Assembly: GCA_913020255.1 (NCBI GenBank)
Contig: CAJWAW010000001.1
Coordinates: forward strand, 1 to 64,000
Source of the DNA: an uncultured Fidelibacterota bacterium
GTDB lineage: Bacteria > Marinisomatota > Marinisomatia > SCGC-AAA003-L08 > GCA-002707645
Reading direction: 5' to 3'
DNA: 64,000 bases
Below, one piece after another: positions 1,905-59,345 of this stretch. Both the position numbers and the translations under genes were made by a program. Position 1 is the stretch's first letter. Each line of letters starts with the position of its first letter. Under the pieces are notes generated by a model, which was not told the origin of the DNA, ran no database searches, and was given only the letters and a program-made list of their open reading frames with translations.

Positions 1905-2495
1905 GTGAAATTTTTAATAGTATCTACATTTTTAATTGCATTTTCTTTTCCTCAGAGTAATGCTGTCCAATTACAGGATATATCTGAAGAGATGTTAGCT
2001 CCTGATCATATTAGTATGCTTATTCATGAAGATTTAATTAATGAATTCTTTAAAAACATGGGTAAAGTTTCAGGTGGAGGAAAAAATTATGAGTGGATTT
2101 TAAAAAATCCTCGTATTGAAATAACGAATAAAAAAGCAGTCTTTAAAGCTGAAATTCAAGTACTAGTTGGTTTCATTAGCTCTACCCAAGATGTAATAGG
2201 AAAAGTTGATGTTAGATATAATGCTAAAGATAATTTAATTATAGTAGAGGTTGTTGATGCAGATGTTATCATTGATATAGCTGGTTATGATATTGGTAAA
2301 ATCGATATTGGCAAACATTTTTCAAAACCTTTAAAATTATCTGGTCCTCAGAGTGTTTCAGAAAATATTGAATTTTCCTTGCCATCAGGAAAAGTAAGGA
2401 AAATTGACATATCAGTTAAATCACATACTTTAGATTTAATTGATGGAGCAATTAAAGTTTCTACAAGTTTAGGGTTTAAGGTTTTAGATAATTAA
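1905..2495 (+). CDS. Hypothetical exported protein
   Basis: The N-terminus (FLIVSTFLIAFSFPQSNA) looks like a cleavable signal peptide. The mature ~175 residues are predicted beta-rich, with alternating hydrophobic residues in segments such as FKAEIQVLVGFIS and LIIVEVVDADVIIDIAGYD. The pattern is loosely reminiscent of lipid-binding LEA/SMP-type beta folds, but I do not recognise the family. The start is GTG at 1905 with AAAGG at 1892-1896, 8 nt upstream. The 3' end overlaps the convergent gene on the minus strand by 4 nt. Confidence 0.65.
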   Translation: MKFLIVSTFLIAFSFPQSNAVQLQDISEEMLAPDHISMLIHEDLINEFFKNMGKVSGGGKNYEWILKNPRIEITNKKAVFKAEIQVLVGFISSTQDVIGKVDVRYNAKDNLIIVEVVDADVIIDIAGYDIGKIDIGKHFSKPLKLSGPQSVSENIEFSLPSGKVRKIDISVKSHTLDLIDGAIKVSTSLGFKVLDN

Positions 2496-2977
2496 TATGT
2501 ACTTCTTATAAGAACTCTATTCTCAGATAAATCAAAATATCCAAAATCTAGAGCTTTTCCACCTTTTCCGGCTAATACCATATTTTTCATAAATACATTT
2601 TCTTGTCCTGATAAATATGAAACATCTAAAGATAATAGCATATATTCACCTGTTGGAATAGATTTCCCATCAAAAGAAAAAGCTAATACCATATTACTAT
2701 TATGTGAGGTGTTAAATTCTTCAAGTTCAAGATAGCCACCATTTGATTTATTTAATAGCGCGCCTTCAAATTCAAATTGTATGCCATATACAGGTTCAGA
2801 AGATCTCATCCATATATCTATTTCTGATTTCTTTAAGTCGAGCCATACAACATTTTCCTCTAGAGTATTTGGAGTTGTATAATCAGGCTTTTCATTTAGC
2901 ATTATTCCTGCGCAAATCATTATCACAACAGCTACGCTTGTAATTATAGTAATTAAATTTGAATTCTTCTTTGACAT
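2492..2977 (-). CDS. Membrane-anchored cohesin-like domain protein
   Basis: One N-terminal transmembrane segment (about residues 8-27) is followed by a single beta-sandwich domain. The stretch EPVYGIQFEFEG ... VLAFSFDGKSIPTGEYMLLSLDV has the spacing typical of cohesin-like domains. It clearly resembles the segment DPIYGIQVEIEG ... ILLSFSFGGATVSAG in the lipoprotein at 17780-19417. An AAGGA site 7 nt before the ATG supports the start. Location at the envelope, facing outward or periplasmic, is inferred. Because several exported proteins here end in dockerin-like pairs, a docking role is possible but unproven. Confidence 0.65.
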   Translation of the reverse strand: MSKKNSNLITIITSVAVVIMICAGIMLNEKPDYTTPNTLEENVVWLDLKKSEIDIWMRSSEPVYGIQFEFEGALLNKSNGGYLELEEFNTSHNSNMVLAFSFDGKSIPTGEYMLLSLDVSYLSGQENVFMKNMVLAGKGGKALDFGYFDLSENRVLIRSTY

Positions 2978-3134: not shown

Positions 3135-3458
3135 ATGAAAAAAATAGTACTATTTATTATGGTAACAGGTTTTGTTTTTGCTGGATTAGTCAAAGAGTCA
3201 TATGTAGTCAAAGGAATGCACTGCCAATTTGGATGTGCAAATAAAGTTCAAGCAATGATGGCAAATCTTGAGGGCGTTGAAAAATGTGAAGTAGACTTTG
3301 AAAGTTCAAAAATGCTAATTGAATATGATGATAAAAAACTTAATACGGATGTTATTATATCTACTATAACAACTAATACTACGTATGAAACTGCAAAAAT
3401 TGATAAAAATGAAAAGAAAAAATCTTTATGGAGCAGGTTAAAAGGTTTATTTGGATAG
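3135..3458 (+). CDS. Exported heavy-metal-associated (HMA) domain protein
   Basis: A 107-residue protein with a signal peptide (about residues 1-16) and an HMA/ferredoxin-like fold. The metal loop reads GMHCQFGC with Cys30 and Cys34, a C-x3-C variant of the usual GMxCxxC. The following LEGVEKCEVDFESSKMLIEYDD matches the HMA strand pattern. The basic tail KKKSLWSRLKGLFG is short and amphipathic. AAAGGG at 3121-3126 is 8 nt before the ATG at 3135, so this start is preferred over the ATG at 3129. A periplasmic copper/metal chaperone role is inferred. It overlaps the next gene slightly. Confidence 0.8.
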   Translation: MKKIVLFIMVTGFVFAGLVKESYVVKGMHCQFGCANKVQAMMANLEGVEKCEVDFESSKMLIEYDDKKLNTDVIISTITTNTTYETAKIDKNEKKKSLWSRLKGLFG

Positions 3459-3831
3459 ATATATGTTAAAAATTGGTCTTATATCAGGAAGCTTATTTGC
3501 TGGTCTATCAATTGTATTTGGAGCATTTGGTGCTCATGCACTAAAAAATCAATTAACCGAGTATTCATTATCAGTTTATGATAAAGCAGTGCTATATCAA
3601 ATGTTTCATGCTTTAGGTATATTAATTGTAACCCTTATGGGCCAAATGATTGAAAATTTAGATGTTTCACTTTCAATTTGGTTTTTTATTATTGGTATTG
3701 TGCTTTTCTCAGGTAGCTTATATATCTTGGCTATAACTGATATGAAGTGGCTTGGTATGATTACACCTATTGGAGGGACTTTTTTTATTTTAGGCTGGTT
3801 TTCATTATTATTTAAATCATTAAATGCTTAA
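3451..3831 (+). CDS. DUF423 family small integral membrane protein
   Basis: A protein of about 125 residues with four predicted membrane helices. The N-terminal signature FGAFGAHALKNQL and the YQMFHALGIL segment are characteristic of the DUF423 (YgdD/YwdK) family, whose function is unknown. Two starts are possible: TTG at 3451, which has AAAAGG 5 nt upstream and overlaps the previous stop, or ATG at 3463. Either way the gene is translationally coupled to the HMA gene. Its stop codon overlaps the Shine-Dalgarno of the following selenoprotein gene. Confidence 0.85.
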   Translation: MDRYMLKIGLISGSLFAGLSIVFGAFGAHALKNQLTEYSLSVYDKAVLYQMFHALGILIVTLMGQMIENLDVSLSIWFFIIGIVLFSGSLYILAITDMKWLGMITPIGGTFFILGWFSLLFKSLNA

Positions 3832-3841
3832 GGACTATTTT

Positions 3842-6142
3842 ATGAAAAAAATTATATTATTATTACTATCTACGTATTGTTTTGCAGGAATGTATACTGT
3901 TGGTCAAACTGTAAATATGAGTCACCAGCTAGCTGAACATGAAATATGTTTTGGATCTAGTCTAGACCCAAATGGAGATGGAATTTTTCAACTTGCTGAG
4001 TTAAATGGTGATTTAAATGGTGGAGACTATAATGTGATTGTCATAGAGATGTCTGCATCATGGTGACCATCTTGCTATACTAGTCTATCAAGTTTTGATA
4101 GTTTTGTTTCTCAGTACTCTAGCAATGAGAATGTCTTTGTCTTTCATTCATTAGGAGATATTGGACAACCTTATTCATGTAATCAGTGGGGAGCTCAAGG
4201 TAATTCCTTAATGCCTCTAATTACAGATGATGATGCTGGGAATTCATTTTATACCTTGTTTTCAACATGTGAAGCTGGTGCATGCTACTACCCAAGCAGT
4301 ATATTTATAGATCATTCTATGAAAGTATATCATATGGATTCTGGTTGGAACTCAACATCTGCATCAAATTTAGTTAATCAGATGCTTGATAATTTAGAAA
4401 ATGCTCTTATTCTTGCAACATATGATAACCTTTCAATTTCAGATTCTGATGGAGATGGGTTATTAAATCCTGGCGAAGAATTTGAATTGACATTTACAAT
4501 AAGTAATAATTCATTTAATCTAGATGCTCAAAATATTGAGGCAACATTATCTTCTGATGAAGATATTGTATTAGATCAATATTCTTTATCATTTGGTAAT
4601 ATTAATGTAGGTAGTCAAAATAGTATTACTATAAATGGATATGTGAATGAGGATGTATTATTAGGTGAAAATGATTTCACACTAAGTGTTACTGCAGATT
4701 TTGATGGTCTACAAAACCAATTAATAAAAAATCATAGCTTTACAATCAATGTTACTTTAAATCAGATTGGATTTCCTTTTGATACAAATAGTGAAATCAA
4801 AACTAGTCCAGTTGTAATTGATTTTAATAATGATGGAAATAACGAATTTATTTTTGGTGACAAGTTTGGATTTGTTCGAATGCTTGATTCAAATGGTAAT
4901 GAAATTGAAAATAATATTTTTCCATTTGATACTGGTAATGAAATTTGGGGTTCTATAGCAGCTGGTTATATAGATTTAGATGATAAAATTGATATTGCTG
5001 TTACTTCAAAGAGTAAGCATATGTATGTTTTAGATATGAACGGTGAAAAATTAGATTATAATACTAATCAATTTTTAATTGGAACACCAGCTCTTGGAAA
5101 TCTTGATGAGGATGATGATTTAGAAATTGTCTTTGGTTCTTATTCTAACCCAGGTAGAGTATATGCAGTAAATGTTGATGGTTCAAATGTAAGTGGTTTT
5201 CCTTTAGATCTAGAGAAAACTCAAAAAGGTGTTGCACTTGCAGATTTTAATGATAATGGAAAAGATGATATTGTAATAGGGACAGAAAATGATGAAGTAT
5301 TCCTTATTTATGATGATGGCTCTATAGCTGATGGTTTTCCTTATCAAACTGAAGATAAAATTCGTTCGGCACCATCAATATTAAATATAGGTGATTCATT
5401 ACTTATTGTTGCTGCATCTAAAGATGGAACATTGTATGCTATTAATCAAGATGGTTCTTTAAGATTTTCTTATAAAAGCGATGATGATATATATGCCTCA
5501 CCAACATTTTTAGAATCTCCACAAGGAACTATGATATTTTTTGGAACAGATAGTGGCTCATTATATGCAGTTGATATTAATGGTAATATTTTTGATGGCT
5601 TCCCATTAGTAGGCTTTGATTCATTTGTTGGTTCTATTGTTTTTCAAGATTTTGATTCAGATGGATTAGCTGAAATAGTATTTGGAAGCGAAAATGGTGT
5701 GTTATCAATTCTTAAATCAGTTGACAGTACATATTCTTCGTTTGAATCGTATGATAGCTTTCCTGCATCTAATACATTTCCTTATTCTTCATCAGTCAAT
5801 ATACAGGATATAGATGGAGATGGAGATATGGAGATTTTTGCTGGAACAACTGGAGATGTGATTACTTATGATATTAAAGAATCACCATCTGATTCTTTTT
5901 GGAATTTATATAGAGCTAATTATCAAAGAACAGGTATATATGTTTCAGAATCTCAATGTACTTCTGGAGATATTAATAATGATGGAATCTTTAATGTACT
6001 TGATGTAGTAGCTCTAGTTAATTTTGTCATTGATTCATCCGGAATATCTGCTCAAGAACAATGTGCCGCAGATATTAATTCTGATGGTATAATTAATATT
6101 TTAGATGTTGTATCTCTTGTAAACCTTGTCATTTCTCCATAA
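3842..6142 (+). CDS. Predicted secreted selenoprotein: UxxC thioredoxin-like domain, Ig-like domain, FG-GAP propeller, dockerin pair
   Basis: One 766-residue frame is interrupted only by TGA at 4064-4066 (residue 75). The 48 codons from the TGA to the ATG at 4211 are all sense codons in the same frame. The residues around the TGA are S-A-S-W-U-P-S-C, so selenocysteine replaces the first Cys of a thioredoxin/TlpA-type WCPSC motif (partner Cys78). A beta strand (NVIVIEM) precedes it, and a candidate cis-Pro (Pro151 in YYPSSIFID) follows. Order: signal peptide 1-16; thioredoxin fold ~20-195; Ig-like domain ~198-290 after DSDGDGLLNPGEE; repeated FNNDGNNEFIFG-like propeller blades ~300-690; dockerin-like pair ~705-766. 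AAGGA at 3830-3834 supports the ATG at 3842. Redox function is inferred; the substrate is unknown. The OsmC gene follows with no gap. Confidence 0.88.
4067..4125 (+). promoter_or_regulatory. Candidate bacterial SECIS element within the coding sequence
   Basis: Immediately 3' of the UGA, CTATCAA (4085-4091) and TTGATAG (4095-4101) form a perfect 7-bp stem closing a 3-nt GUU loop. The loop begins 25 nt after the UGA and has G in its first position. This agrees with the general description of bacterial SECIS hairpins read by SelB (small apical loop, early G, loop about 16-37 nt from the UGA). TTGCTA (4072-4077) and TAGCAA (4120-4125) could add a lower stem. Whether SelB binds it is inference. 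Confidence 0.75.
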
Positions 6143-6541
6143 ATGTCAGATATAACTGTTACTTATCTTGGAGATTTAAGAACAGAATCCATTCATCTTG
6201 ATTCTAATACTTCCATTATAACTGATGCCCCTAAAGATAATCAAGGTTTAGGAAGAAAGTTTTCACCAACTGATTTAGTTGCTTCTTCTCTAGGGAGCTG
6301 TTTGTTAACTATTATAGGTATTGTAGCTAAAAGACATAAAATAGATTTAAAAAATACATATGCCAACATAACAAAAAAAATGTCAGAAAGTCCAAGGAGG
6401 ATATCATCTATAATTGTAGATATATATTTTAAATCTATCTTAGATGAGAATCAATTGATAATATTAAAGAGAGCAGCAAAACATTGTCCAGTTCATAATA
6501 GTTTAAGTGATAGCATTGATATACAAATTAATTTTAAATAA
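6143..6541 (+). CDS. OsmC/Ohr family protein
   Basis: A 132-residue protein with the OsmC-like layout: N-terminal strands, then SPTDLVASSLGSCLLTIIG with a Cys at the start of the central helix, and RAAKHCPVHNSL with the second Cys. These two Cys are the redox pair of the family, which reduces organic hydroperoxides. It belongs to the YhfA-like branch rather than classical Ohr, judged by the short N-terminus. The ATG directly follows the TAA of the selenoprotein gene (TAAATG), which implies coupled translation and a shared thiol/peroxide context. Confidence 0.85.
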   Translation: MSDITVTYLGDLRTESIHLDSNTSIITDAPKDNQGLGRKFSPTDLVASSLGSCLLTIIGIVAKRHKIDLKNTYANITKKMSESPRRISSIIVDIYFKSILDENQLIILKRAAKHCPVHNSLSDSIDIQINFK

Positions 6542-11827: not shown

Positions 11828-12784
11828 TTGAAACAAAATATTATATATAAGTTAAATAATGAATTAAGATTAGATAAATTTTTAAAGCAGGAACTTCCTG
11901 AATTTTCTAGAACAAAAATCCAACAATATATAAAATCGGGTATTATTAAAGTAGATGGCTATAATATTAAGTCATCTTATTTACTTAAGTTAAATCAAAT
12001 TATTTCATTAGATGATAATATTCTTCTTAATAATGAAGAGTCATTATTACCTGAAAATATGATGTTAAATATTTTACACGAAGATGATCATATTATTGTT
12101 ATAAATAAGAAAGCTGGAATAGTAGTACATCCAGGTATAGGAAATAAAAATGGTACGTTATTAAATGGCGTATTGCATCATTGTTCTAATCTGTCTGATT
12201 TTAATGGTAGACCTGGAGTTATACATAGATTAGACAAAGGTACTTCAGGAGTGATTATTTTTGCTAAAACTGATAAAGCACACTATCATATCAGTGAACA
12301 ATTTGCTAATAGATCTATTAAAAAAAAATATTTAGCTATTATTTGGGGTAATATAGATACGTCTATAAATATAGATGGGTATATTAATAGGGATCCAAAA
12401 AATAGATTAAAATTTAAATTATTTAGTAATAAAGGTAAATTTTCTTCATCACGAATAAAATTGGTATCAAATTATGATTTACCTGTAAGTGTTGTTGAAG
12501 TATATCCTGAGACTGGAAGAACTCATCAGATAAGGGTCCATTTATCTCATTTAGGACATCCTATTTTAAAAGATGATTTATATAATGGTGGAGATAAAAT
12601 CATTACTTCATTTCACCAAAAATATAAATTAGAGTTAGGTAAAATTGTTAATTTAATAGATAGGGTAGCTTTGCACGCTAATGAAATTGAATTTATACAT
12701 CCAGAAAATAATAAAAAAATTAATTTTATTGCTCCAATTCCAAAAGACTTTTGTAATGTATATAATTTCCTAAATGAAGAATAA
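11828..12784 (+). CDS. rluD: RluD-type 23S rRNA pseudouridine synthase
   Basis: A 318-residue enzyme with an N-terminal S4 RNA-binding domain (about residues 12-75) and a RluA-family catalytic domain. The catalytic Asp136 sits in HRLDKGTSG. The downstream GRTHQIRVHLSHLGHPI block is diagnostic. It converts uridines to pseudouridine in 23S rRNA; assignment to RluD rather than another RluA member rests on the S4 domain and its place beside lspA. TTG start; the 3' end overlaps the xer gene by 11 nt. Confidence 0.9.
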   Translation: MKQNIIYKLNNELRLDKFLKQELPEFSRTKIQQYIKSGIIKVDGYNIKSSYLLKLNQIISLDDNILLNNEESLLPENMMLNILHEDDHIIVINKKAGIVVHPGIGNKNGTLLNGVLHHCSNLSDFNGRPGVIHRLDKGTSGVIIFAKTDKAHYHISEQFANRSIKKKYLAIIWGNIDTSINIDGYINRDPKNRLKFKLFSNKGKFSSSRIKLVSNYDLPVSVVEVYPETGRTHQIRVHLSHLGHPILKDDLYNGGDKIITSFHQKYKLELGKIVNLIDRVALHANEIEFIHPENNKKINFIAPIPKDFCNVYNFLNEE

Positions 12785-13670
12785 AAAAAAAATAATATTA
12801 GATTTTTTATCATACATTAAAAATGAAAAAAAATTTTCAAATCATACTATAAGAGCTTATGAATATGATTTAAATGAATTTAAAAATTTTTTAAATAAAT
12901 ATAGTAAGGGAATTGAGATTCAAAATATTCAAGCTTCGTCGTTACAATTTTTTATTCAAACACTTTCTAAAATTGGATTAGAAGGCAAAACTATTCAAAG
13001 AAGAGTATCAACTATAAAATCTTTTTTTAAATATTTAACAGAAAATCAGATAATTGATTATAATATTGCAGAATTGATACATGTACCAAAAGCTTCTAAG
13101 AGACTTCCTTATTTGTTATCTGAAAATGAAATTATAAAATTAATGAAATTACCTGATTTGAGTTGCTATAATGGAATTAGGGATAAATCTATTTTAGAAA
13201 TTCTTTATTCTACAGGTCTAAGAATATCTGAATTGAAATCAATAAAATTAGATGATATAGATTTAAATAAAAAATTAATTAAAGTATTAGGAAAAGGTAA
13301 TAAAGAAAGATATGTTATTCTTGGTAAAGAATCTTTAAATTCTTTAGCGGATTATTTAAAAATAAGGGATGATATAAAAAATAATTATTTTTTATATCCC
13401 AATATATATAAAAAAAATAATCAAAATATAAGTGAAAAAACACTATTTAATATTGTTAAAAAATATTTGAAAATGATATCAAATAATGAGAAGTTGAGTC
13501 CACATTCTTTACGTCATTCATTTGCAACTCATTTATTAGAAAATGGTGCTGATTTATTAGCTGTTAAAGATATGTTGGGTCATGAAGATTTATCTTCAAC
13601 TCAAATTTATACTCATGTAAAGATTAAAAAAATAAAAGAAGTATATAGGAAGGCTCATCCACATGGATAA
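12774..13670 (+). CDS. xerD: XerC/XerD-type tyrosine recombinase
   Basis: A 298-residue site-specific recombinase of normal Xer length. The N-terminal SAM-like core-binding domain spans ~1-95. The catalytic set is complete: Arg150 (STGLRISEL), Lys174 (GKGNKER), His244 and Arg247 (HSLRHSFATH), His270 and nucleophile Tyr279 (IYTHV). Such proteins resolve chromosome dimers at dif. Its place inside a housekeeping operon argues for a chromosomal Xer and against a phage integrase. XerC versus XerD cannot be told from sequence alone, so the symbol is tentative. Confidence 0.85.
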   Translation: MKNKKKIILDFLSYIKNEKKFSNHTIRAYEYDLNEFKNFLNKYSKGIEIQNIQASSLQFFIQTLSKIGLEGKTIQRRVSTIKSFFKYLTENQIIDYNIAELIHVPKASKRLPYLLSENEIIKLMKLPDLSCYNGIRDKSILEILYSTGLRISELKSIKLDDIDLNKKLIKVLGKGNKERYVILGKESLNSLADYLKIRDDIKNNYFLYPNIYKKNNQNISEKTLFNIVKKYLKMISNNEKLSPHSLRHSFATHLLENGADLLAVKDMLGHEDLSSTQIYTHVKIKKIKEVYRKAHPHG

Positions 13671-17779: not shown

Positions 17780-19417
17780 TCATTCACATTCTACAGAATA
17801 ATCAAAATTATCAATAATAAGATTTAAATTATTTATATTACATAATTCTTGAGGAAATGTGGTAAAATTATTGCCACTTAAATTTAAGTATTGAAGATTA
17901 TTTAGATCGACTATTTCAGATGGTAAATTTGTTAGCTGATTATTACTTAAATCTAGAGTTTTTAATTGTGTTAAGTTGCTTATATTTGAAGGTAATGAAT
18001 TTATACTACAATCAATATTAGCATTTCCATCAATAGTCAAAGTTGTTATTTTCCCAATAAATGAATTGTTTGTATCAACCCAAAATATTCCATCACTATC
18101 TCTTTCTAAAAGATTGCAATTGCTATTATTATTAACAATAGTTTCTAAAGCTAGTAAATCATTGTATGAATACATGTTATGATGTGAAAATGTTGTATTT
18201 TTAATTCCAATGAATGAGTTAGCATCTGCAACAGTTAATTCTACTAAAATTCCACATCCAGCACTTACTGTTGCTCCACCGAAAGAAAAAGATAATAATA
18301 TATTTCCATTCGCTTGAAGTATAAAACCAGCCGTAGATGCATCTCCTCCGCTAGCAGATGTTATTGTAGTTCCTTCAATTTCAACTTGAATACCATAGAT
18401 AGGATCATCAGATTTATATAAAAGATACATTTTATTTGGGATTGTGTCATCTTCAACGATTACTAGACTATTTGAATCCATTTCAGTGCAAGCACAAATA
18501 TTGCCAATGCTACCACTTCCACCGCATACGCCACAATCATCTAATCCTACGGTGCAATTATATTCACAATCATATAATGAACTATCAATAAATGCTCCAC
18601 CGCATTCACCGTAATAATTATATTCTGAATTACCTGAATCTAAACAATCACATTCACCAGATGTAGATCTAAGCAAACAATTTGACTGATCAGTGCAAGC
18701 ATATTCTCCAATGCATTCATTTTGATTATCGGGAATACAACTGTCACCATTTGCGCATGTGAAATAATTAGCTAGATTTTGATCTATACAATTTCCACAA
18801 TCATCAATTACTGCACCAGTCCATGAGGCGTTAGATATCCATGTACCATCAGAAAGATCTAGTGATTCATTGCATTCATCGCATGCTGTACTATCATTTG
18901 GATCACATAAAGAGTTATCACTGTCACATCGATAGTTCCTAACATAATTAAATTCACATTCACCATTGCAATCTAAAGTATTACCATTGCAATCACAATC
19001 TCCATCTGGGATAGTATCACAACCACATAAATAGCTTTCACCATCGCCATTGCATCTTCCACATATATCTATTTGAGCATTTCCTCCACAAATACCATTG
19101 CAATCCATACCTATTGCATTATAACTACCATATTCATCAGGGATGATGCAAACTTCAGGATTATTACAATCAGGGATTCCATTATTATTTGGATTATCAT
19201 CACAAACACCACAGTCATCGGTAGTTGCATTGCCACCCCAAATCCCAATGCAATCTTGGAGACAGTCATTTAATGGATTATTATCACATACTCCACAATT
19301 ATCTTCAGTAGATGCACCGTTTGGTATTCCATTGCAATCTTCATATACAGTAGGATTATTTTCACATCCAAAATGTAATATGAATAATAGAAGAAAGATT
19401 TTAGTAATTTTTTTCAT
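17780..19417 (-). CDS. Cys-rich repeat lipoprotein with cohesin-like domain and leucine-rich repeats
   Basis: A 545-residue surface lipoprotein. The N-terminus ends in ILHFGC, a lipobox-like site. Residues ~25-310 hold many short modules such as DNCGVCDNNP, DDCGVCDDNP and CGGNAQIDICG, probably disulfide- or calcium-stabilised. Residues ~330-430 form a cohesin-like domain (DPIYGIQVEIEG, ILLSFSFGG) homologous to the protein at 2492-2977. The C-terminus has leucine-rich repeats (LKTLDLSNNQLTNLP, LQYLNLSGNNFTTFP). Stop is TGA. AAGGA precedes the ATG, which overlaps the lptF/G stop by one base (TAATG), so the two are coupled. Function unknown. Confidence 0.75.
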   Translation of the reverse strand: MKKITKIFLLLFILHFGCENNPTVYEDCNGIPNGASTEDNCGVCDNNPLNDCLQDCIGIWGGNATTDDCGVCDDNPNNNGIPDCNNPEVCIIPDEYGSYNAIGMDCNGICGGNAQIDICGRCNGDGESYLCGCDTIPDGDCDCNGNTLDCNGECEFNYVRNYRCDSDNSLCDPNDSTACDECNESLDLSDGTWISNASWTGAVIDDCGNCIDQNLANYFTCANGDSCIPDNQNECIGEYACTDQSNCLLRSTSGECDCLDSGNSEYNYYGECGGAFIDSSLYDCEYNCTVGLDDCGVCGGSGSIGNICACTEMDSNSLVIVEDDTIPNKMYLLYKSDDPIYGIQVEIEGTTITSASGGDASTAGFILQANGNILLSFSFGGATVSAGCGILVELTVADANSFIGIKNTTFSHHNMYSYNDLLALETIVNNNSNCNLLERDSDGIFWVDTNNSFIGKITTLTIDGNANIDCSINSLPSNISNLTQLKTLDLSNNQLTNLPSEIVDLNNLQYLNLSGNNFTTFPQELCNINNLNLIIDNFDYSVECE

Positions 19418-28900: not shown

Positions 28901-28952
28901 CAAAGATAGATTTACAGTGGATGCTGTAATGGTCTGATGAGGAGATACCCAC
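28901..28952 (+). ncRNA. Structured spacer between tRNA-fMet and its terminator, possible small RNA
   Basis: This 52-nt stretch can form two small hairpins, ACAG/CTGT and GGTCT/AG-AT-ACC, before the strong terminator. It has no open reading frame of note. It may be just the tRNA trailer, or a small stable RNA released by tRNA processing. No RNA family is recognised. Confidence 0.25.
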
Positions 28953-28984
28953 AAAAGGGACCCAAACATTTGGGTCCCTTTTTT
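28953..28984 (+). terminator. Strong Rho-independent terminator after tRNA-fMet
   Basis: AAAAGGGACCCAA and TTGGGTCCCTTTT form a perfect GC-centred stem with a 4-nt loop (ACAT), followed by a run of six T. It separates the tRNA unit from the Cys-rich dockerin gene at 29023. Confidence 0.92.
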
Positions 28985-29022
28985 CTTGCAGTTTTAAAAT
29001 ATTTTTAATACTATTTATTTAT

Positions 29023-30255
29023 ATGATAATGCTATTTATACTTCTTATATCCCTTTCTTTATCTAATACTTACTATGGATATTTAAGAACTATTGAAGTA
29101 AGTTTTTGCATGGATGAATGTGGAATGTATCAAATCGAGTCCGAGATCGACACTGGATTTGGAGCTATACCAATAGTTATAAACAATGATGTGGATATAA
29201 GTTTTTATTTAAATAGATTTGTAAATATAACTGTAGGTGATCAAGAGTTTGAATGTGAAGAATGTAATGCGCTATTAGTAGATTCTATTTCTCTATCTTA
29301 TGATTGTGATTATCCTATTTCGTGTTTTGCAGATCCATGTGAAGTCGCTAATGAATGTGAAATAAATACTCCTATAGAGTGTGTTTCTAATTTTTGTGGT
29401 GGTTGTTACGCTGATTTTTATAATTTAGATGGAAATTTAGTAGATTGTTATCTAGAGAATCCTCCTTTCATATGCGATAATATAAATGGTATTGATTTTG
29501 GAATGTGTGATATGTTTTTAGGGTATGCGGTAAGTAATGAGTCTTGTGTAGGATTTTCTGGATGCGGATGGGATTTAAATGGAGTTGATTACTCGAATGT
29601 TTTTTTTAATAGTATTGAAGAATGTGAATCAAGCTGTTTTATTGATATGTATGATTGCGAAGATATTGAATATCATTATAATCAATTGCATATAAATGAT
29701 TATGCATTATGTGAAATTGATGATGATTGTATTGCAGTTTGGGGACATTGTGACGTAGGTCTTGGTGGTTGCCATTATTCTGTTAATGAAAACAACTATC
29801 CTCAACAAGAAATTAATAATTTAGTTGTACAATGGTTGGATGGTGATTGTACTCAAGGTGTATGTGATTGTTTAGATTTACCTTATGCTCAATGTATTGA
29901 TGGTGTTTGTACTTCAGCTTACTGTTTAGAAGATAATCCGGCTGGTTGTTTTTCAACTGGATGTGATGATGGATTTACTTGTATGAATCTTTCTGATTCA
30001 TGTACACCTTCTTCATGTTTTTGTAATGAAGACCAATTCTATGGATATTGGTTTTGTACAGAAGATTGTGGTGGTGGAACCTGCATTATACTTGGTGATA
30101 TTAATCAAGATACATTTATAAATATAACAGATATTGTATCTATAGTTAATAGTATATTAATTGACAATTATAATCCTATCGGTGATGTTAATCAGGATAG
30201 TTTATTAAATATCTCTGATATTATTATTTTAGTAAATATCATATTAGGAGAATAG
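29023..30255 (+). CDS. Secreted cysteine-rich protein with C-terminal dockerin-like pair
   Basis: A 410-residue exported protein: hydrophobic N-terminus (MLFILLISLSLSNT), then a region with dozens of Cys (for example CEVANECEINTPIECVSNFC). The C-terminus (~residues 345-410) holds two dockerin-like calcium loops, GDINQDTFINITDIV and GDVNQDSLLNISDII. A segment around DDDCIAVWGHCDVGLGGC resembles Cys-knot-like secreted modules, but I name no family. Initiation may be at ATG 23 or 29 of the 29000s (M-I-M). It lies just after the tRNA terminator and is probably transcribed alone. Confidence 0.7.
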   Translation: MIMLFILLISLSLSNTYYGYLRTIEVSFCMDECGMYQIESEIDTGFGAIPIVINNDVDISFYLNRFVNITVGDQEFECEECNALLVDSISLSYDCDYPISCFADPCEVANECEINTPIECVSNFCGGCYADFYNLDGNLVDCYLENPPFICDNINGIDFGMCDMFLGYAVSNESCVGFSGCGWDLNGVDYSNVFFNSIEECESSCFIDMYDCEDIEYHYNQLHINDYALCEIDDDCIAVWGHCDVGLGGCHYSVNENNYPQQEINNLVVQWLDGDCTQGVCDCLDLPYAQCIDGVCTSAYCLEDNPAGCFSTGCDDGFTCMNLSDSCTPSSCFCNEDQFYGYWFCTEDCGGGTCIILGDINQDTFINITDIVSIVNSILIDNYNPIGDVNQDSLLNISDIIILVNIILGE

Positions 30256-30979: not shown

Positions 30980-30994
30980 TTATATGGATATAAT

Positions 30995-33900
30995 ATGATA
31001 AAAATATTAAGGATTATCATATTTTCAATTATTTTTACTATTACTTTACCAAATGTAGTATCCAATTCTGTCCTATATAATAGTTTTAATCAATGTAATG
31101 ATAGCAGCGCTATTAATTATAATAGCTCTGCCTCTGATGATAGTGAATGTGTTTATTATAGTATACCTTCAATACATGTAAGTGAAGATGAAGATATTAA
31201 TATTGATTTATTAAGTTATGCTTATCCTGAAGATGTGTATAATTCTGAGAATTTTTCTTTTTCAGTAAGTTGTAGTAATACTACATATGTAAATGGTTGT
31301 AGTATTAATGATAATTTTCTTAATGCTACAATTGATGATAAGAATTCTGATTATGATACAGGTTATTTATCATTGACGGTTACCTATGGTGATAAAACTG
31401 TTTATAAAAGTTTTAGATTTAATGTTGATGCTGTTAATGATGCCCCTAATATTCAAGAGGAGAATAATTTAAAAGCTGTAAAAAATCAATTGTTTGAGTA
31501 TAGAATTGATGTTGAAGATGTAGATGATAATAATTTCATATTTTCATTGATAAATGATCCAACATCAGGATCTGATTTTTCTTTAACTGCTTACTCTACC
31601 TTTGCTTTAGTATCATATACTCCTCAAGATGGAGATAATTTCACTTCATGTGGTGACAATGAATGCTTTGCTTTCACTATTAAAGTAGAGGATCAAGGCG
31701 AAGGGCCTGAATCAGATCAAGTGGATTTTAATGTGACTATTGATGAGTCTACTAATAATTTACCTGAAATTAATTTGACAAATGAAGATTCTAGTTATGA
31801 CCCTTTAGATTCAAATTCTATAGCCTATGAAATCAATGAAGACCAACAAAATTTTAAAATAGAATTTAGTGTAAATGATGATGATAATTTTACTAAAAAT
31901 GATTTATCTGCAGTATCAAGCTATACTAGAAATAATCAAATATTTTATTTAAATCATATGGAAACGGAAATGTTTGGAAATTATCCAAATTTTTATTTTA
32001 CATGTATACCGTGGCCTAATTGGAATGGTGAATTTAAGGTTAAAATAATTGCTAATGATGATATCAGCTATTCAACTTATGAATTTAAGGTAAATGCTAA
32101 TGCTATAAATGACAACCCAAATATTTATAATTTTGATGATTTTACATTTGATGAAGGATCCTCAATTCCTAAAATAATAAATTATTATGATATTGATGCT
32201 GATATTGATAGAAATGAAATTCCCTTTAATTATTCTTCGCTTACATTTACGATTGAGAATCTTAATGATGATAATATTGTTGCAAGTATAGAAGAAGGAG
32301 GTAATGGTACTTCTTCAGCGAATTTATTATTTAATACAAGTGATGATGATTGGAACGGAACAGAACAATTTAGAGTAACTATTAATGATGGTCAAGGTTC
32401 AGGAAATATTCAAGAAACAATTAATGTCACTGTAAATAATGTAAATGATTTACCAACAATTGATAGTATCAATGATCAAATAATCAATGAAGATCAGGAA
32501 GGTGGATTGAAAATTGAGATTAATGCGAATGATATTGATAATGATAATTTAACATTCTCTTCACCAACAATTGATTATGCGGATATCAGTTTTACAAATG
32601 AAAATGTTAAGGATTATTTAAATTTAATAACTGATACTCATTATTATGGTGATTTAAATATAACAGTGAATGTTGATGATGGTTCAGGAATCAACATATC
32701 AACATCTTTTCAAGTAACTGCAGAGGAAGTAAATGACCCTCCATATATTAAAAGCCTTGAATTAAATGTTGATGAAGATACTAATAATTCTATTTTTTTA
32801 ACTAATATTGATGGAATATGTGATAATGATTTATCAGATGGTATTAATTGTAACTGTGATGACAATTTATCTTATACTTCTGGAGCTTGTGATATTGAAT
32901 CATCTACTTTAACATTTGAAATCATTTCAAATCCTAGTCATGGAATTTATAGTTTAGATAATACAGCGCAAAATGTAAATTTTTCTTATACCCCTAATGG
33001 TGATTATAATGGCTCAGATTCAGTGGATTATTCAGTTTGTGACGAAGAAAACTTATGCTCAGATGGTACCATAATGATAAATGTAATAAATACTAATGAT
33101 CCTCCTGTAGCAATAGCTAATGATGTTCTAGTTGATGAAGATGATTCTGTTGATATTCAGTTAACTGCTACAGATATTGATCCTAATGAAGAATTAATTT
33201 ATAATATTTTAAACAATCCAACGTCTGGTTCTGTTATTATTGATGGTTCAGTAGTAACGTATACTCCAAACCCTGATGTTAATGGAATTGATAGCTTTGA
33301 GTTTTCTGTATCTGATGGCGAAGCTAGTGATAGTGCAATAATATCAATTACTATTAATCCAATTAATGATGAACCACTAGCTGCTTTTGGTATACAAGGA
33401 ATTGGAGATGAAGATCAAAATATTCCTATTACATTACTTGGAACAGATATTGATGGTGATATTTTATCATATAGCATATCAGATCTTCCGAGTAATGGTT
33501 CATTAGATAATACTAATAGTGAAAATATTTTATATACACCTAATGCTCATTTTAATGGTTCTGATAGTTTTGAATTTACTGTTTCAGATGGCATTTTAAC
33601 TGATACAGAAGTAGTTAGCATAACAATTAATGCTATTAATGATCCTCCAATTCTTGCACAAATTAATAATATTATATTTGATGAAGATAGTACTGAAAAT
33701 GAAAATAAAACCATTGACCTTTTAGCATCAGATGTTGATTTACAAGATAGTGATAGTCAGGAATCTTTATCTTTTAGTATTGTAGGTGGTACGTTTATTT
33801 CTTCAGATTTAGATGCGAATGAAAATAAAATAACTTTTATTACACCTGAAAATTATTATGGTAGTGAAGAATTTACTATTTTAGTTTCAGATAGTCAAAA

Positions 33901-36900
33901 TGAACAAGATTCACAGAATATTACAGTAACAATAAATTCTGTTAATGATAGAACTCAAGTAAAAAAAATAATTGATTCAACACAAGAGGATTGTGATGTT
34001 AAAATAATAGAATTAAATACAATTAGTTCTGATAATAGTGTTTGTGATGATGATATTCTAGATGGAGTTATATGTGATTGCTCTAGTGATAATTATAATT
34101 ATGGGGTGTGTGATATTGATCATCAAAACTTAACGTATCATATTGTTAAGCCTCCGCAAAATGGAGTAGCAGTTATTGATGAAAATACAGGTACTGTTCA
34201 ATATACTCCTAATCTTAATTATATATCATTGGATGGTGAAACTGATGATATTTATTATCAAGTATGTGATGGTGAAAATTGTAGTTTAACTGATTGTTCA
34301 TTAGAAGATGCTCAAAATCTAGTTGATTGTTTAGAAAACAATATTATTGTAGATTCTTCTAATAATTGTGTTGATTCAAATCAGTGTGGCATTATTCAGA
34401 TTTCTGTAAATGAAATAAATGATTCACCTGCATTATCATGTCTTGATTGTAATTTGTTATTATCTGAAAATAATTATATTGATGGAAGTCAATTATATGA
34501 AGACTGCACATCAGATGAAAGTGAATCAAATCAATCATGCAGTACCATAAATGGAATTACAGTCAATAATTTGAGAATGAATAAAGATTTCGATGATCAG
34601 CCATGTAGTTTAGAGCATTTATGGACTGATGCCGATTGTAATGAGTCTCCAAATGATTTTGGTATTGCTGTTGATGTTGTATCCTGTATAAATGATAATA
34701 GTGATAAAGGTGAATGGCAATTTAAAAAAGGAAATAATGATTATATTACATTTTCTTCACCATCTAATGATTGTGATTATCAGTTACTTTCTGAAAATGA
34801 TTTAATTAGATTTGTACCGAATGATAATTATTATAGTAAAAATGAAGAATATCCAATGATTAAATTTTATGCATGGGATAAATCCATGTATGATGACCAG
34901 GATTGTGTTGATGCATCTAATATTCAATCCTTATTCAATAATAGATTGAATGAATGCTCTGATGGTAGTACTTTCAGTAGTTCTTTTATGACTTTTTCTT
35001 TACCAATAGAATCTGTTAATGATACGCCAGTGTTTTTACCTTTTGAACATGATAATTTAGATGAAAATAATATAGTTGTTTTAAATGAATATTGCAGTGA
35101 TAATGATAATGGATGTTCATCAGATGGTTATGAAGAATTAATTATTCATATTGAAGACACAAAAGATCCTGAGGATGAATTTTACTATTATATCTCTCAT
35201 ATAACAACTTCTAGTAATAAAAATAAAAGTATATTTTCTAATCTTAGTCATTTTATTGATGATAATACTGTAGATGATGATTTAATTGATTTAAATGGCG
35301 ATTTTTATGATATTTTAAGTCCTAATTATCTTGAGTTAGATGATTTGGTTTTAATTGATGGTGAGAATGGTGCAAAAATAATTAAATTGAATTATGATGA
35401 AAATGTAAATGGTAGTGTTACAATAAATATAAAAGTATCAGATAGAGAAAATCTTGAAGATATTGATGCGAATTATGTGGAAAAATCTATAAATCTAGAC
35501 ATCAAACAAGTAAATAATAGAATTTCAGATTTTAGTGTTGTTTCTAATATTTCTTCATATTTAAATGATGACTTTATAGATACTGATTTTTCTAGTAATT
35601 CTATTGATAATGGAAGAATGATATATCCTGCTAACCCAACAACTGAACAACAGTTATATATTAAATACCCTCCATATGGTTACAATGCAAATGATTTAGA
35701 TGTTACGCTAATTAATGATTCTAACTATAAAGATATTTATGACTATATGTTATTAAACCAACATCAGATGGAATATATGTATTTTAAATGGAATAGGCGA
35801 GATCAAGATAGTAATTTATTGGATCCAGATATTGATGTAGAACTAAATGGTGAGCCTTACAAACTTTATTATAGACTTGAATTAATTGATGAAGAATCTG
35901 ATACTGATAATGTATTTGTTATCAAAGATTATATTGATGACTCTATGTTTACAGGTGATTATGCTTATACGAGAGCTAAAATTTTAGATAAAGAGTATAT
36001 GTACTACACAGAAGGATCAAATATTTATAATCCTAGTGATACTTTAAATGAAAACAATAAAAAGAAATTTGATGCCTCAGGATTAACTTTATATAATTGG
36101 AGAATAGTTGCTTCCAATTATGAAGAGCTTGATATAATGGATAATTATGATATTGATACTAAAGAATCTACAGTATCTGCCAAAACATATGGAATTAAAA
36201 TCAATTTGCCTGAGGTCGATTATAATTTTATTTTAAATGATATTTATAATAATTATTTTAATCTTTATCTAACTTCTAAGCCAACAAGTTATTATGGTAT
36301 CACAAATAATTATGAAAATATTTCATTTAATTCCAATAATGAAATATATATAATATATAATAGCGAATTGCAGGAAAGTGAGACTTTTAATTTAAGAAAT
36401 ATCAGCCTATTAGATAACACAAGTAATGTGTTTTCAACTTTAGGTGCATTTAATGATTTTGGTGGTATTAAATGGTATATACCAATGCAAGATGCTGTTG
36501 GTAATGTTAATATAGATTATATATATATAAATTATGACTCTGTTTCACCAAATACACCTAATTCTTTTAACTCTGAATCTGGAAAGTTTAATCTAACTAT
36601 CAATTCTATGAATCCTTATAATATTCTTTTTTACGAATTAAATAAAAATGATATACAACTAATGATGAATGAAGATGAGGTGCTGTCTGATATATTTGTT
36701 TTTAATGGTAACATTGAATTTCCACTAGGTAGTATTAGTTTAGAATATGATATAAGTAATATATTGAGTGATTATTATATAGATTATAATAAAATTACCT
36801 TTGCTAAGTATAGTAATGGTTTAATAGAAAAAAACAATACTTATCTTTATAATAATCGCTTAATAACTGATGTTGATAATTTTGGTTCTTATATATTGAT

Positions 36901-37213
36901 TTTAGATGATTCTAATGCTAGTACTAGTATCCCTGTAAGTACAAGCATTCTTTCTTGCTACCCTAATCCATTTAATCCGAAAACTACAATTAATTATAAT
37001 TTAGAATATGATTCCGAAGTAGAGGTTCAAATTTATAATTTGATGGGTCAAAAAATATATAATTTCAAGCCTTCTTTAAAGAAAAAAGGAATCAATCAAT
37101 TTACATGGAGCGGCTATGATGGTAATGGGAATGAATTGTCATCAGGTATTTATATTATAAAAATAATTACATCTGATCAGATTTTAACGCAAAAGGTGAC
37201 ATTATTAAAATGA
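30995..37213 (+). CDS. Giant cadherin-like repeat adhesin with T9SS sorting domain
   Basis: A 2072-residue surface protein. A signal peptide (~1-24) is followed by a short NYNSSASDDSECVYY module. About ten beta-sandwich repeats follow, each closed by a VNDxP-type linker (VNDAP, INDNP, VNDLP, VNDPP, TNDPP, INDEP, INDPP, INDSP, VNDTP) and opened by a DEDxx strand. These are typical cadherin-like/Big_9 tandem domains that bind calcium through DxD motifs. The last ~90 residues form a Por/T9SS sorting domain (CYPNPFNPKTTINY ... GIYIIKIITS). A role in adhesion or cell contact is inferred. The stop overlaps the next start (ATGA). Confidence 0.85.
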   Translation: MIKILRIIIFSIIFTITLPNVVSNSVLYNSFNQCNDSSAINYNSSASDDSECVYYSIPSIHVSEDEDINIDLLSYAYPEDVYNSENFSFSVSCSNTTYVNGCSINDNFLNATIDDKNSDYDTGYLSLTVTYGDKTVYKSFRFNVDAVNDAPNIQEENNLKAVKNQLFEYRIDVEDVDDNNFIFSLINDPTSGSDFSLTAYSTFALVSYTPQDGDNFTSCGDNECFAFTIKVEDQGEGPESDQVDFNVTIDESTNNLPEINLTNEDSSYDPLDSNSIAYEINEDQQNFKIEFSVNDDDNFTKNDLSAVSSYTRNNQIFYLNHMETEMFGNYPNFYFTCIPWPNWNGEFKVKIIANDDISYSTYEFKVNANAINDNPNIYNFDDFTFDEGSSIPKIINYYDIDADIDRNEIPFNYSSLTFTIENLNDDNIVASIEEGGNGTSSANLLFNTSDDDWNGTEQFRVTINDGQGSGNIQETINVTVNNVNDLPTIDSINDQIINEDQEGGLKIEINANDIDNDNLTFSSPTIDYADISFTNENVKDYLNLITDTHYYGDLNITVNVDDGSGINISTSFQVTAEEVNDPPYIKSLELNVDEDTNNSIFLTNIDGICDNDLSDGINCNCDDNLSYTSGACDIESSTLTFEIISNPSHGIYSLDNTAQNVNFSYTPNGDYNGSDSVDYSVCDEENLCSDGTIMINVINTNDPPVAIANDVLVDEDDSVDIQLTATDIDPNEELIYNILNNPTSGSVIIDGSVVTYTPNPDVNGIDSFEFSVSDGEASDSAIISITINPINDEPLAAFGIQGIGDEDQNIPITLLGTDIDGDILSYSISDLPSNGSLDNTNSENILYTPNAHFNGSDSFEFTVSDGILTDTEVVSITINAINDPPILAQINNIIFDEDSTENENKTIDLLASDVDLQDSDSQESLSFSIVGGTFISSDLDANENKITFITPENYYGSEEFTILVSDSQNEQDSQNITVTINSVNDRTQVKKIIDSTQEDCDVKIIELNTISSDNSVCDDDILDGVICDCSSDNYNYGVCDIDHQNLTYHIVKPPQNGVAVIDENTGTVQYTPNLNYISLDGETDDIYYQVCDGENCSLTDCSLEDAQNLVDCLENNIIVDSSNNCVDSNQCGIIQISVNEINDSPALSCLDCNLLLSENNYIDGSQLYEDCTSDESESNQSCSTINGITVNNLRMNKDFDDQPCSLEHLWTDADCNESPNDFGIAVDVVSCINDNSDKGEWQFKKGNNDYITFSSPSNDCDYQLLSENDLIRFVPNDNYYSKNEEYPMIKFYAWDKSMYDDQDCVDASNIQSLFNNRLNECSDGSTFSSSFMTFSLPIESVNDTPVFLPFEHDNLDENNIVVLNEYCSDNDNGCSSDGYEELIIHIEDTKDPEDEFYYYISHITTSSNKNKSIFSNLSHFIDDNTVDDDLIDLNGDFYDILSPNYLELDDLVLIDGENGAKIIKLNYDENVNGSVTINIKVSDRENLEDIDANYVEKSINLDIKQVNNRISDFSVVSNISSYLNDDFIDTDFSSNSIDNGRMIYPANPTTEQQLYIKYPPYGYNANDLDVTLINDSNYKDIYDYMLLNQHQMEYMYFKWNRRDQDSNLLDPDIDVELNGEPYKLYYRLELIDEESDTDNVFVIKDYIDDSMFTGDYAYTRAKILDKEYMYYTEGSNIYNPSDTLNENNKKKFDASGLTLYNWRIVASNYEELDIMDNYDIDTKESTVSAKTYGIKINLPEVDYNFILNDIYNNYFNLYLTSKPTSYYGITNNYENISFNSNNEIYIIYNSELQESETFNLRNISLLDNTSNVFSTLGAFNDFGGIKWYIPMQDAVGNVNIDYIYINYDSVSPNTPNSFNSESGKFNLTINSMNPYNILFYELNKNDIQLMMNEDEVLSDIFVFNGNIEFPLGSISLEYDISNILSDYYIDYNKITFAKYSNGLIEKNNTYLYNNRLITDVDNFGSYILILDDSNASTSIPVSTSILSCYPNPFNPKTTINYNLEYDSEVEVQIYNLMGQKIYNFKPSLKKKGINQFTWSGYDGNGNELSSGIYIIKIITSDQILTQKVTLLK

Positions 37214-38124
37214 AAAAAATATTTTTTATATTAATTTTTATTTACAGTTGTGATGATTTAGGCGTAGAAGAGTTTCAGGAAAGTTTTTCTTATTATGATT
37301 ATTTGTCATATGGATGGGCCAAAATATTTGAAAATGATATGGATTATGCAAAATTTTATTTTGATGAGTCTTTAAACGAAGATGTAACATATTATAATAA
37401 TGCAATTGTAGGTATGGGATGGACTATGACTTATTTAGCTAATAATTCTTTAAGTCTTGACTCTTGTAATGATGGGGATAATTGCATCGATTTAGTTGAC
37501 CAATATAGAAATCAAGCTAAATGTTTTTTTGTTAGAGCTGTAGAGTTAGGTGATTTAAGTACTAAGAAATTTGATGATATTTTAAATGAGTGTTCTGATA
37601 ATATTAATTTGGAATATGCTAATATAGACTTTATGAATTTAGAATTAACTAATATTGTCAATTTTTATAAAACAGAATGTGAAGAAGACCTCAATGGGAA
37701 TGTTGAATATGTTAGTTGCTTTGAAAATTTTATTTTAGATATGCAGGTAGCTTATCTTTATTTAGAATATTTAGAATATCAAAGCAATCAAATAAAAGGT
37801 ATACTTGAATGCAATGATATAGATAGTAATAATACATGTGATGAGTTAGATTCTCTTATAACATTATTTATAGATTTTTTGGATTTAAATCCTAATTATG
37901 ATATAACAGATGATAAAGCAATTTACCCTAATGCCTACAATATAAATCACAAGAAAATTGAAGCTAGAATTTCTCAGTTTTATTTAGATTCTAATATTGA
38001 TAATAAATTAAATCAGTCATGTGTTTGGGCAAAAAAAATATGTGATTCAATAGAGTGTGAATTGATTGATAATCAAATTGATACAATGCAACAGATTTTA
38101 GATTGTATTGATACAGAATTCTAA
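37210..38124 (+). CDS. Lipoprotein with TPR-like helical repeats
   Basis: A 304-residue protein beginning KKIFFILIFIYSCDD, a lipobox-like signal ending in Cys13. The rest is helical, and YLSYGWAKIFENDMDYAKFYFDESL and YNNAIVGMGWTMTYL look like degenerate TPR units. It contains several paired Cys. Overlap of the start with the stop of the adhesin gene implies co-translation, so it may support assembly or anchoring of that adhesin. That link is inferred from context only. Confidence 0.7.
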   Translation: MKKIFFILIFIYSCDDLGVEEFQESFSYYDYLSYGWAKIFENDMDYAKFYFDESLNEDVTYYNNAIVGMGWTMTYLANNSLSLDSCNDGDNCIDLVDQYRNQAKCFFVRAVELGDLSTKKFDDILNECSDNINLEYANIDFMNLELTNIVNFYKTECEEDLNGNVEYVSCFENFILDMQVAYLYLEYLEYQSNQIKGILECNDIDSNNTCDELDSLITLFIDFLDLNPNYDITDDKAIYPNAYNINHKKIEARISQFYLDSNIDNKLNQSCVWAKKICDSIECELIDNQIDTMQQILDCIDTEF

Positions 38125-38204
38125 CTACATATTGTTACACCTTTTTATTTAAGAAACATTTATTAATCATCATATATTATATCAACTTTTTACTTAGGCT
38201 AGAA

Positions 38205-39479: not shown

Positions 39480-39480
39480 T

Positions 39481-50223: not shown

Positions 50224-50316
50224 GGAAGCGAATGTCACCCTGGTGGGTACCACGGTCTTCAAAGCCGATGTTTCAGTGAATAGCTGAAAGGTGGGTTCGA
50301 TTCCCACACGTTTCCG
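50224..50316 (+). tRNA. selC: Selenocysteine tRNA (UCA anticodon)
   Basis: A 93-nt tRNA. The anticodon loop CTTCAAA carries TCA, reading UGA. It shows the selC features: 8-nt acceptor strands (GGAAGCGA with ACGTTTCC: seven pairs plus a terminal A-A mismatch, one G-U); a D-arm GTcACCC/GGGTAC with a 4-nt TGGT loop; a long variable arm TTTCAG/CTGAAA with a 7-nt loop; a 5-bp T-stem (GTGGG/CCCAC) and discriminator G. CCA is not encoded (CAA follows). It lies between two protein genes and is likely co-transcribed with them. selA, selB and selD are not in the window. Confidence 0.93.
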
Positions 50317-52036: not shown

Positions 52037-52195
52037 ATATCCTCTATAGATTGTAATTTATAATTGATTCACAAATTTATGTCTAAATATCACTATTTAT
52101 TTAGTATTAATTGTAATTTCTTGTTACTGTAATAATTAGTTACTTTTTTTTGTAGAACCAATTGATAAATTAACCTTAAAATTATATGTCTATTT
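52037..52195. other. Divergent intergenic region
   Basis: A 159-nt AT-rich spacer between two outward-facing genes. It probably holds both promoters. A TTGATA at 52163 precedes the sulfotransferase gene, but no -10 box at 17 nt is convincing. No RNA or small gene is visible. Confidence 0.4.
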
Positions 52196-59295: not shown

Positions 59296-59345
59296 GATAT
59301 AAAATTAAACTTTATTATTAATTAATAAATGTAATAAGATGTTAC

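Follow-up and report, generated by a model that had tools for sequence, protein, structure and literature searches.

A predicted exported UxxC selenoprotein with a thioredoxin-fold head on a propeller and dockerin chassis, and its relatives in Neomarinimicrobiota

Thioredoxin-fold selenoproteins with a UxxC motif (U, selenocysteine, Sec) are a known kind, according to the accessible parts of four publications (PMC13188914, PMC9312934, PMC2398784, PMC1088965). From the SAR406 lineage, a 2016 survey listed three genomes with selD and no known selenium trait, as far as its accessible part goes (PMC5029168, Table 1). Here, we analysed a window of 64,000 nucleotides from an uncultured Fidelibacterota bacterium (assembly GCA_913020255.1, contig CAJWAW010000001.1, positions 1 to 64,000), in which an in-frame TGA occupies the first active-site position of the thioredoxin-like domain encoded by the gene at 3842-6142. 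It is highly probable that this UGA is read as Sec; the product would be a predicted exported protein with a U-P-S-C thioredoxin-fold head on a presumably non-catalytic chassis. Of greater reach than this one gene is the phylum-level family to which it belongs, whose members in Neomarinimicrobiota (SAR406) are predicted to be exported UxxC selenoproteins.

The TGA at 4064-4066 is the single interruption of the 766-codon frame 3842-6142, as the original prediction stated, and codon 75 lies between W74 and P76-S77-C78 in the active-site context E-M-S-A-S-W-U-P-S-C. This frame is unmatched in the window: among the frames with one to three internal TGAs that a six-frame scan listed, the next in length has 194 codons; the 691-codon stop-free run has a chance of about 1e-26 from composition at 28% guanine plus cytosine. 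If the TGA is not read through, translation from the upstream start ends at W74, within the thioredoxin core as had been predicted, and the first in-frame start after the TGA (4211, residue 124) lies beyond the active site. The ratio of non-synonymous to synonymous change (pN/pS) between the window gene and the related locus L001 amounts to 0.38 upstream of the TGA, 0.39 over the following 125 codons and 0.50 beyond. TGA is also an ordinary terminator in the window, where it ends 5 of 54 non-overlapping open reading frames (ORFs) of at least 100 amino acids; therefore, UGA is not simply reassigned.

A scan of genome contigs for relatives returned 25 loci, each of which carries the title Neomarinimicrobiota/Marinimicrobia or TMED161/TMED198 bacterium, and suggests by this kinship that the window too comes from Neomarinimicrobiota; no relatives were found in viral contigs in one scan. 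The orthologues L001, L002, L006 and L009 and the genes of L022-L025 carry TGA at the site; L003-L005, L007 and L008 carry TGT or TGC. The gene order DUF423-like, selenoprotein gene, OsmC is conserved in L001, L002, L006 and L009 (TGA) as well as in L003, L004 and L005 (Cys), and because this order is common to both groups, the orthologues alternate between TGA and Cys. Recurrence of the TGA in four syntenic loci from other assemblies does not bear out a sequencing error at 4064-4066.

A profile of the head domain found matches (E 1e-8) in 128 of 245 genomes from this phylum. For comparison at the DNA level, 60 regions picked by hand from the listed matches, with TGA rows preferred, were combined with 30 loci from the search, and removal of duplicates by the 90 nucleotides around the site codon left 113 genes, window included. 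The site codon is TGA in 95, TGT in 14, TGC in 4 and anything else in none, in agreement with the predicted UGA/Cys alternation at residue 75 and with UGA standing for the first Cys of WCPSC. Among the 95 TGA genes, Trp precedes the site in 92, Cys follows three residues on in 92, and a second TGA replaces this downstream Cys in 3. These UxxU members, with TGA at both active-site positions, are L095 1956, L118 1929 and L124 2026, the latter two without the preceding Trp; L117 1703 carries an adjacent TGA pair at the active site, which would be either two Sec residues or an error in a base. With the site column left in, a quick tree was built from 117 domains, among them a few fragments of one gene; it requires at least eight changes between U and Cys (shuffled mean 16.9), five of them forced by starred branches, and gain and loss of Sec are indistinguishable on it.

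Protein-database homologues were examined as the best 120 of 332 listed, query aside. Forty-two align from the N-terminus, with Cys at residue 75 in 40 and Trp in two (P0004 and P0081), the residue that translation of TGA with table 4 would give. Another 44, including most of the closest, start after residue 75 at scattered positions (82-181), and the remaining 34 are either fragments or proteins with a different N-terminal part. The late starts are gene callers resuming downstream of the TGA, and the homologues do not end at this codon. Since annotation splits these proteins and 44 of the 120 start past the active site, the active domain is missing from many entries.

A predicted bacterial selenocysteine insertion sequence (SECIS) hairpin follows the codon; its loop starts 25 nucleotides beyond the TGA, within the spacing permitted for bacterial SECIS elements, and the first loop base is G. 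Two nulls were tried, a dinucleotide shuffle first and then a synonymous-codon control, which was judged better. The best stem score of 96 TGA sequences was 13.35 against 7.19 after synonymous-codon resampling (Wilcoxon 1.4e-17), and that of 18 Cys sequences 7.06 against 6.37 (0.049). Folding energy relative to the synonymous control gave a mean z of -1.47 for TGA sequences (7e-15) and 0.06 for Cys sequences (0.62). Covariation was measured in 31 sequences drawn from the 96 (plus one), with one hairpin register as the main criterion. Of their cells, 86.6% pair, and both sides change in five of six pairs, with slid controls reaching at most 57% and 0.215. Some of the stem changes pair two third positions and leave the residues unchanged (ATC-GGT-TCG versus ATT-GGT-TCA). 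Rfam models run on the gene at a relaxed threshold gave 15 matches, all far below gathering scores and none a SECIS.

In the genomes of 13 relatives, selA (10), selB (10), tRNA-Sec (9) and selD (9) were found over cut-off, and selA and selB adjoin in the nine genomes with both. The genes selA, selB and selD, whose absence would have spoken against the original prediction, are thus present in most of these relatives, and the window carries tRNA-Sec. Each of the nine selD genes over cut-off has one internal TGA, as do those of three further genomes; SelD itself therefore looks like a selenoprotein (L038-L041 included). These genes offer an ordinary explanation for the SAR406 selD genomes of the 2016 survey. 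Across the phylum, selA passes the cut-off in 175 of 245 genomes, and at least 63 have a TGA-bearing match by hand tally among the matches listed; on that basis, selA at E 1e-20 is present in 56 of 63 genomes with such a match versus 122 of 182 others (Fisher 0.0005, kinship not corrected). Seven TGA-bearing genomes are without selA at E 1e-20: G010, G129, G146 and G175 have a UGA-containing selD, G011 has tRNA-Sec, G012 has selB and a selA fragment, and in G225 no match to either selA or selD passed the thresholds used. In the genome of L006 (G006 C34, 37163-38990), selB is in pieces and selA is one frame, possibly through assembly frameshifts. Lost Sec decoding was rejected as the cause of the Cys forms, as G003-G005, which have Cys orthologues, also carry selA and TGA paralogues. 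From the TGA/Cys alternation, the hairpin signal, the tRNA-Sec and the sel genes of relatives, we conclude that the gene very likely encodes a selenoprotein, with Sec predicted at codon 75.

If the TGA were a real stop, the locus would be two separate genes, a pseudogene, or the result of an error in sequencing or assembly. Table 11 does split it into products of 80 and 643 amino acids, and the 643-residue form is present in the protein database, but the same-site TGA in four syntenic loci and in 95 of 113 genes, purifying selection on the downstream frame, the scatter of the called downstream starts and the hairpin signal beyond the TGA make a stop extremely improbable. UGA might instead be read as another amino acid (for example Trp, code 4) or by leaky read-through without Sec, as the Trp in 2 of 42 N-terminally complete homologues could suggest. 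This is as improbable as the stop, because the alternate codon is always Cys, TGA ends window ORFs and interrupts one long frame, and tRNA-Sec in the window accompanies selA and selB in relatives.

Several observations weigh against Sec insertion or its proposed use. A further TGA occurs before the next TAA or TAG in 10 of 95 TGA genes, in four of them within three codons. The genes selA, selB and selD were seen in relatives' genomes only, the window itself supplying tRNA-Sec, and 3 of 13 relatives (selA, selB) or 4 of 13 (selD, tRNA-Sec) have no match over cut-off. The sequences of the hairpin test are mutually related, some being duplicates of one gene, and singly 43 of 96 TGA sequences (window p 0.01) and 0 of 18 Cys sequences reach p <0.05. 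Dinucleotide shuffles give a weak signal (mean z -0.43 for the 96 TGA and +0.33 for the 18 Cys sequences), with z about 0 for the window hairpin, whose register is absent from the 31 covariation sequences. Further pair types, one of five covariation measures, were reached by 65 of 500 shuffles. As to function, OsmC adjacency is the sole clue. Sec insertion at codon 75 follows closely from the evidence as a whole, whereas export, surface location and chemistry are what we infer.

Table 1. Coordinates of the predicted selenoprotein gene, its parts and other features of the window
Feature	Position	Strand	Basis
Predicted selenoprotein gene	3842..6142	+	766-codon open frame, one TGA; pN/pS <1 either side of TGA
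Predicted signal peptide, ~residues 1-16	3842..3889	+	Inferred by eye from MKKIILLLLSTYCFAG
ResA/TlpA-type thioredoxin-fold head, residues 17-190	3890..4411	+	AlphaFold2 (AF2) predicted local distance difference test (pLDDT) 91.1; Foldseek, VIA-align
Predicted selenocysteine codon 75, TGA, first position of UxxC	4064..4066	+	95 TGA / 18 Cys / 0 other, 113 genes
Predicted resolving Cys78 of UxxC, TGC	4073..4075	+	Invariant in alignments A2 and A6
Predicted bacterial SECIS hairpin, 7-bp stem 4085-4091/4095-4101, loop GTT 4092-4094	4085..4101	+	p 0.01 vs synonymous resampling; covariation in relatives, other register
Immunoglobulin (Ig)-like beta domain, ~residues 191-304, extent approximate	4412..4753	+	AF2 beta strands; no Pfam match over cut-off
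FG-GAP/PQQ-type beta-propeller, ~residues 305-700, extent approximate	4754..5941	+	FG-GAP_3 54.1 bits, cut-off 26.9; Foldseek propellers
Dockerin type I-like pair, residues 709-761	5966..6124	+	Pfam PF00404 27.8 bits, cut-off 22.9
OsmC-like gene, abutting (TAAATG)	6143..6541	+	Pfam PF02566 58.3 bits, cut-off 27.5; 7 related loci
Upstream DUF423-like gene	3451..3831	+	Synteny across 7 related loci
tRNA-Sec, anticodon TCA	50224..50315	+	Rfam RF01852 63 bits, gathering 47; ARAGORN
Further dockerin-pair frames	28930-30252, 38112-39476, 39472-41790	+	Pair near C-terminus
Further dockerin-pair frames	50567-52057, 56404-59304	-	Pair near C-terminus

The best Foldseek and VIA-align matches of the AF2 head model are DsbE/ResA-type oxidoreductases, and the head combines, as in the ResA/TlpA type, a thioredoxin fold with a W-C/U-x-x-C motif where the first core helix begins. 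P151, invariant in alignment A2 and at least 90% conserved in A6, lies immediately before a strand at what we take to be the cis-Pro position of the fold. The window head scores below the Pfam cut-offs (AhpC-TSA 22.4/26, Redoxin 19.3/26.6, Thioredoxin 14.1/23.5 bits), the AhpC-TSA cut-off is passed by two of five relatives' proteins, and no NCBIfam model is over cut-off on the head in the proteins scanned.

In the proposed mechanism, the hairpin would recruit SelB with Sec-tRNA so that UGA is decoded instead of acting as a stop. After export, Sec75 would attack as the nucleophile and Cys78 resolve via a selenenyl-sulfide, and the head may act on extracytoplasmic proteins by reducing or shuffling their disulfides (or related oxidised groups). 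The Ig-like, propeller and dockerin parts would form a chassis without catalytic function that holds the head on or close to the cell surface, and the same chassis presumably positions protease heads in homologous proteins. Alternatively, the selenoprotein could be mainly a peroxiredoxin-like peroxidase outside the cytoplasm, perhaps acting beside the OsmC-like product. The original prediction suggested a peroxide or thiol role from the TAAATG junction, and TAA 6140-6142 does abut the ATG of the OsmC-like gene; the neighbourhood is conserved in seven loci (four TGA, three Cys), but it is the whole basis of that link. Peroxiredoxins have a TxxC/TxxU motif, which is absent at the site, and W-U-x-x-C is the thioredoxin/ResA arrangement; with DsbE/ResA as the best Foldseek matches, a mainly peroxidatic role appears unlikely, if still worth considering, beside the proposed disulfide chemistry.

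No OsmC match was found in L007, L008 and L022-L025 within the DNA stretches scanned. In the Cys locus L003, a gene of 246 amino acids (12386-13126), membrane-like by eye, lies between the selenoprotein-gene orthologue and OsmC. On the other side of the window gene, the name of the gene at 3451..3831 is one we presume, DUF423-like.

Pfam and the AF2 model agree with the domain list given originally (thioredoxin-like, Ig-like, propeller, dockerin). Six window frames, including the selenoprotein gene, have a dockerin-like C-terminal pair starting 53-58 residues from the C-terminus; the pair is a generic C-terminal module in the source organism. It was rejected as a special feature of the selenoprotein gene, because five other window frames end likewise. 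The window frames 2-373 and 30980-37210 end in a PNPFNP-type tail. A type IX C-terminal sorting domain was not found in the window protein, and 30 of 52 UGA proteins scanned have one (E 0.01). The products of 2492-2977 (-) and 17780-19417 (-) share a similar YGIQ.E.EG beta segment, cohesin-like by eye, and are possible dockerin partners; Pfam found nothing in 2492-2977 and leucine-rich repeats alone in 17780-19417, no dedicated cohesin search being made.

Several genomes carry more than one member of the family. By hand count among the matches listed, G001, G006 and G170 have five TGA-bearing matches each, and triplets within ~3-4 kb occur in G001 C20, G170 C37 and G012 C51. There is perhaps an even chance that these represent a SAR406 extracellular selenoproteome, a lineage-specific radiation of surface UxxC enzymes with five or more UGA paralogues in some genome assemblies of 1.2-1.7 Mb, sometimes three in tandem, on interchangeable dockerin, propeller or type IX chassis, with selenium spent outside the cell. 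For an ocean bacterium with a small genome, the export of several selenium-dependent redox enzymes would be an unexpected expense, and it would connect marine selenium with redox chemistry at the cell surface. The syntenic Sec and Cys orthologues offer a natural experiment on the contribution of Sec.

The Omp28-related selenoprotein family NF045500 (GOS_C, UxxC) was also predicted from marine data, according to the accessible parts of PMC13188914 and PMC2398784, and its model ends in a dockerin-like tail, which the present proteins match. The window protein scores 18.5 bits on the tail only (cut-off 200), the best relative (L108) reaches 126.9/200 bits, and in all 24 rows with coordinates the best stretch falls in the last part of the 377-position model, from 234 onwards, and not once in the head. 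Membership in NF045500 was thus rejected. No NF045500 match was found in 13 relatives' genomes at E 1e-30, where the control matched nowhere either, so that absence is not shown. Other described marine thioredoxin-fold UxxC selenoproteins have the same fold and motif, some within fused proteins; the fusions named in the accessible parts of those sources involve PP2C, Secretin_N, unknown domains and SelD, and none a propeller, dockerin or sorting tail. The SAR406 family may still be identical with Prx-like 2 or Prx-like 3/Unknown_3. The fusions in the accessible part of PMC9402790 (deiodinase-like/EF-hand, MucD/PDZ, Prx-like/DsbC) differ from the window architecture. No description of a SAR406 UxxC family was found in listings of open-licence full text on selenoproteins (with SAR406/Marinimicrobia/Neomarinimicrobiota, dockerin or type IX), several of them covered at the top only, or in the accessible parts of PMC5029168 and PMC8318568.

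In contrast to the TlpA/ResA/DsbE extracytoplasmic thiol-disulfide oxidoreductases, the window gene has TGA at the first Cys codon, and its head, below the Pfam and NCBIfam cut-offs mentioned, is fused to the propeller and dockerin chassis. This chassis is common to exported proteases (peptidase C10, S8, M6) with an FG-GAP propeller and dockerin, which share ~40-46% identity with the window protein from residues 161-203 to ~764. The original claim of an undescribed domain combination was overstated, the combination being a single instance of a modular chassis. The peptidase C10, S8 and M6 proteins carry a protease head where the window protein has its thioredoxin-fold head.
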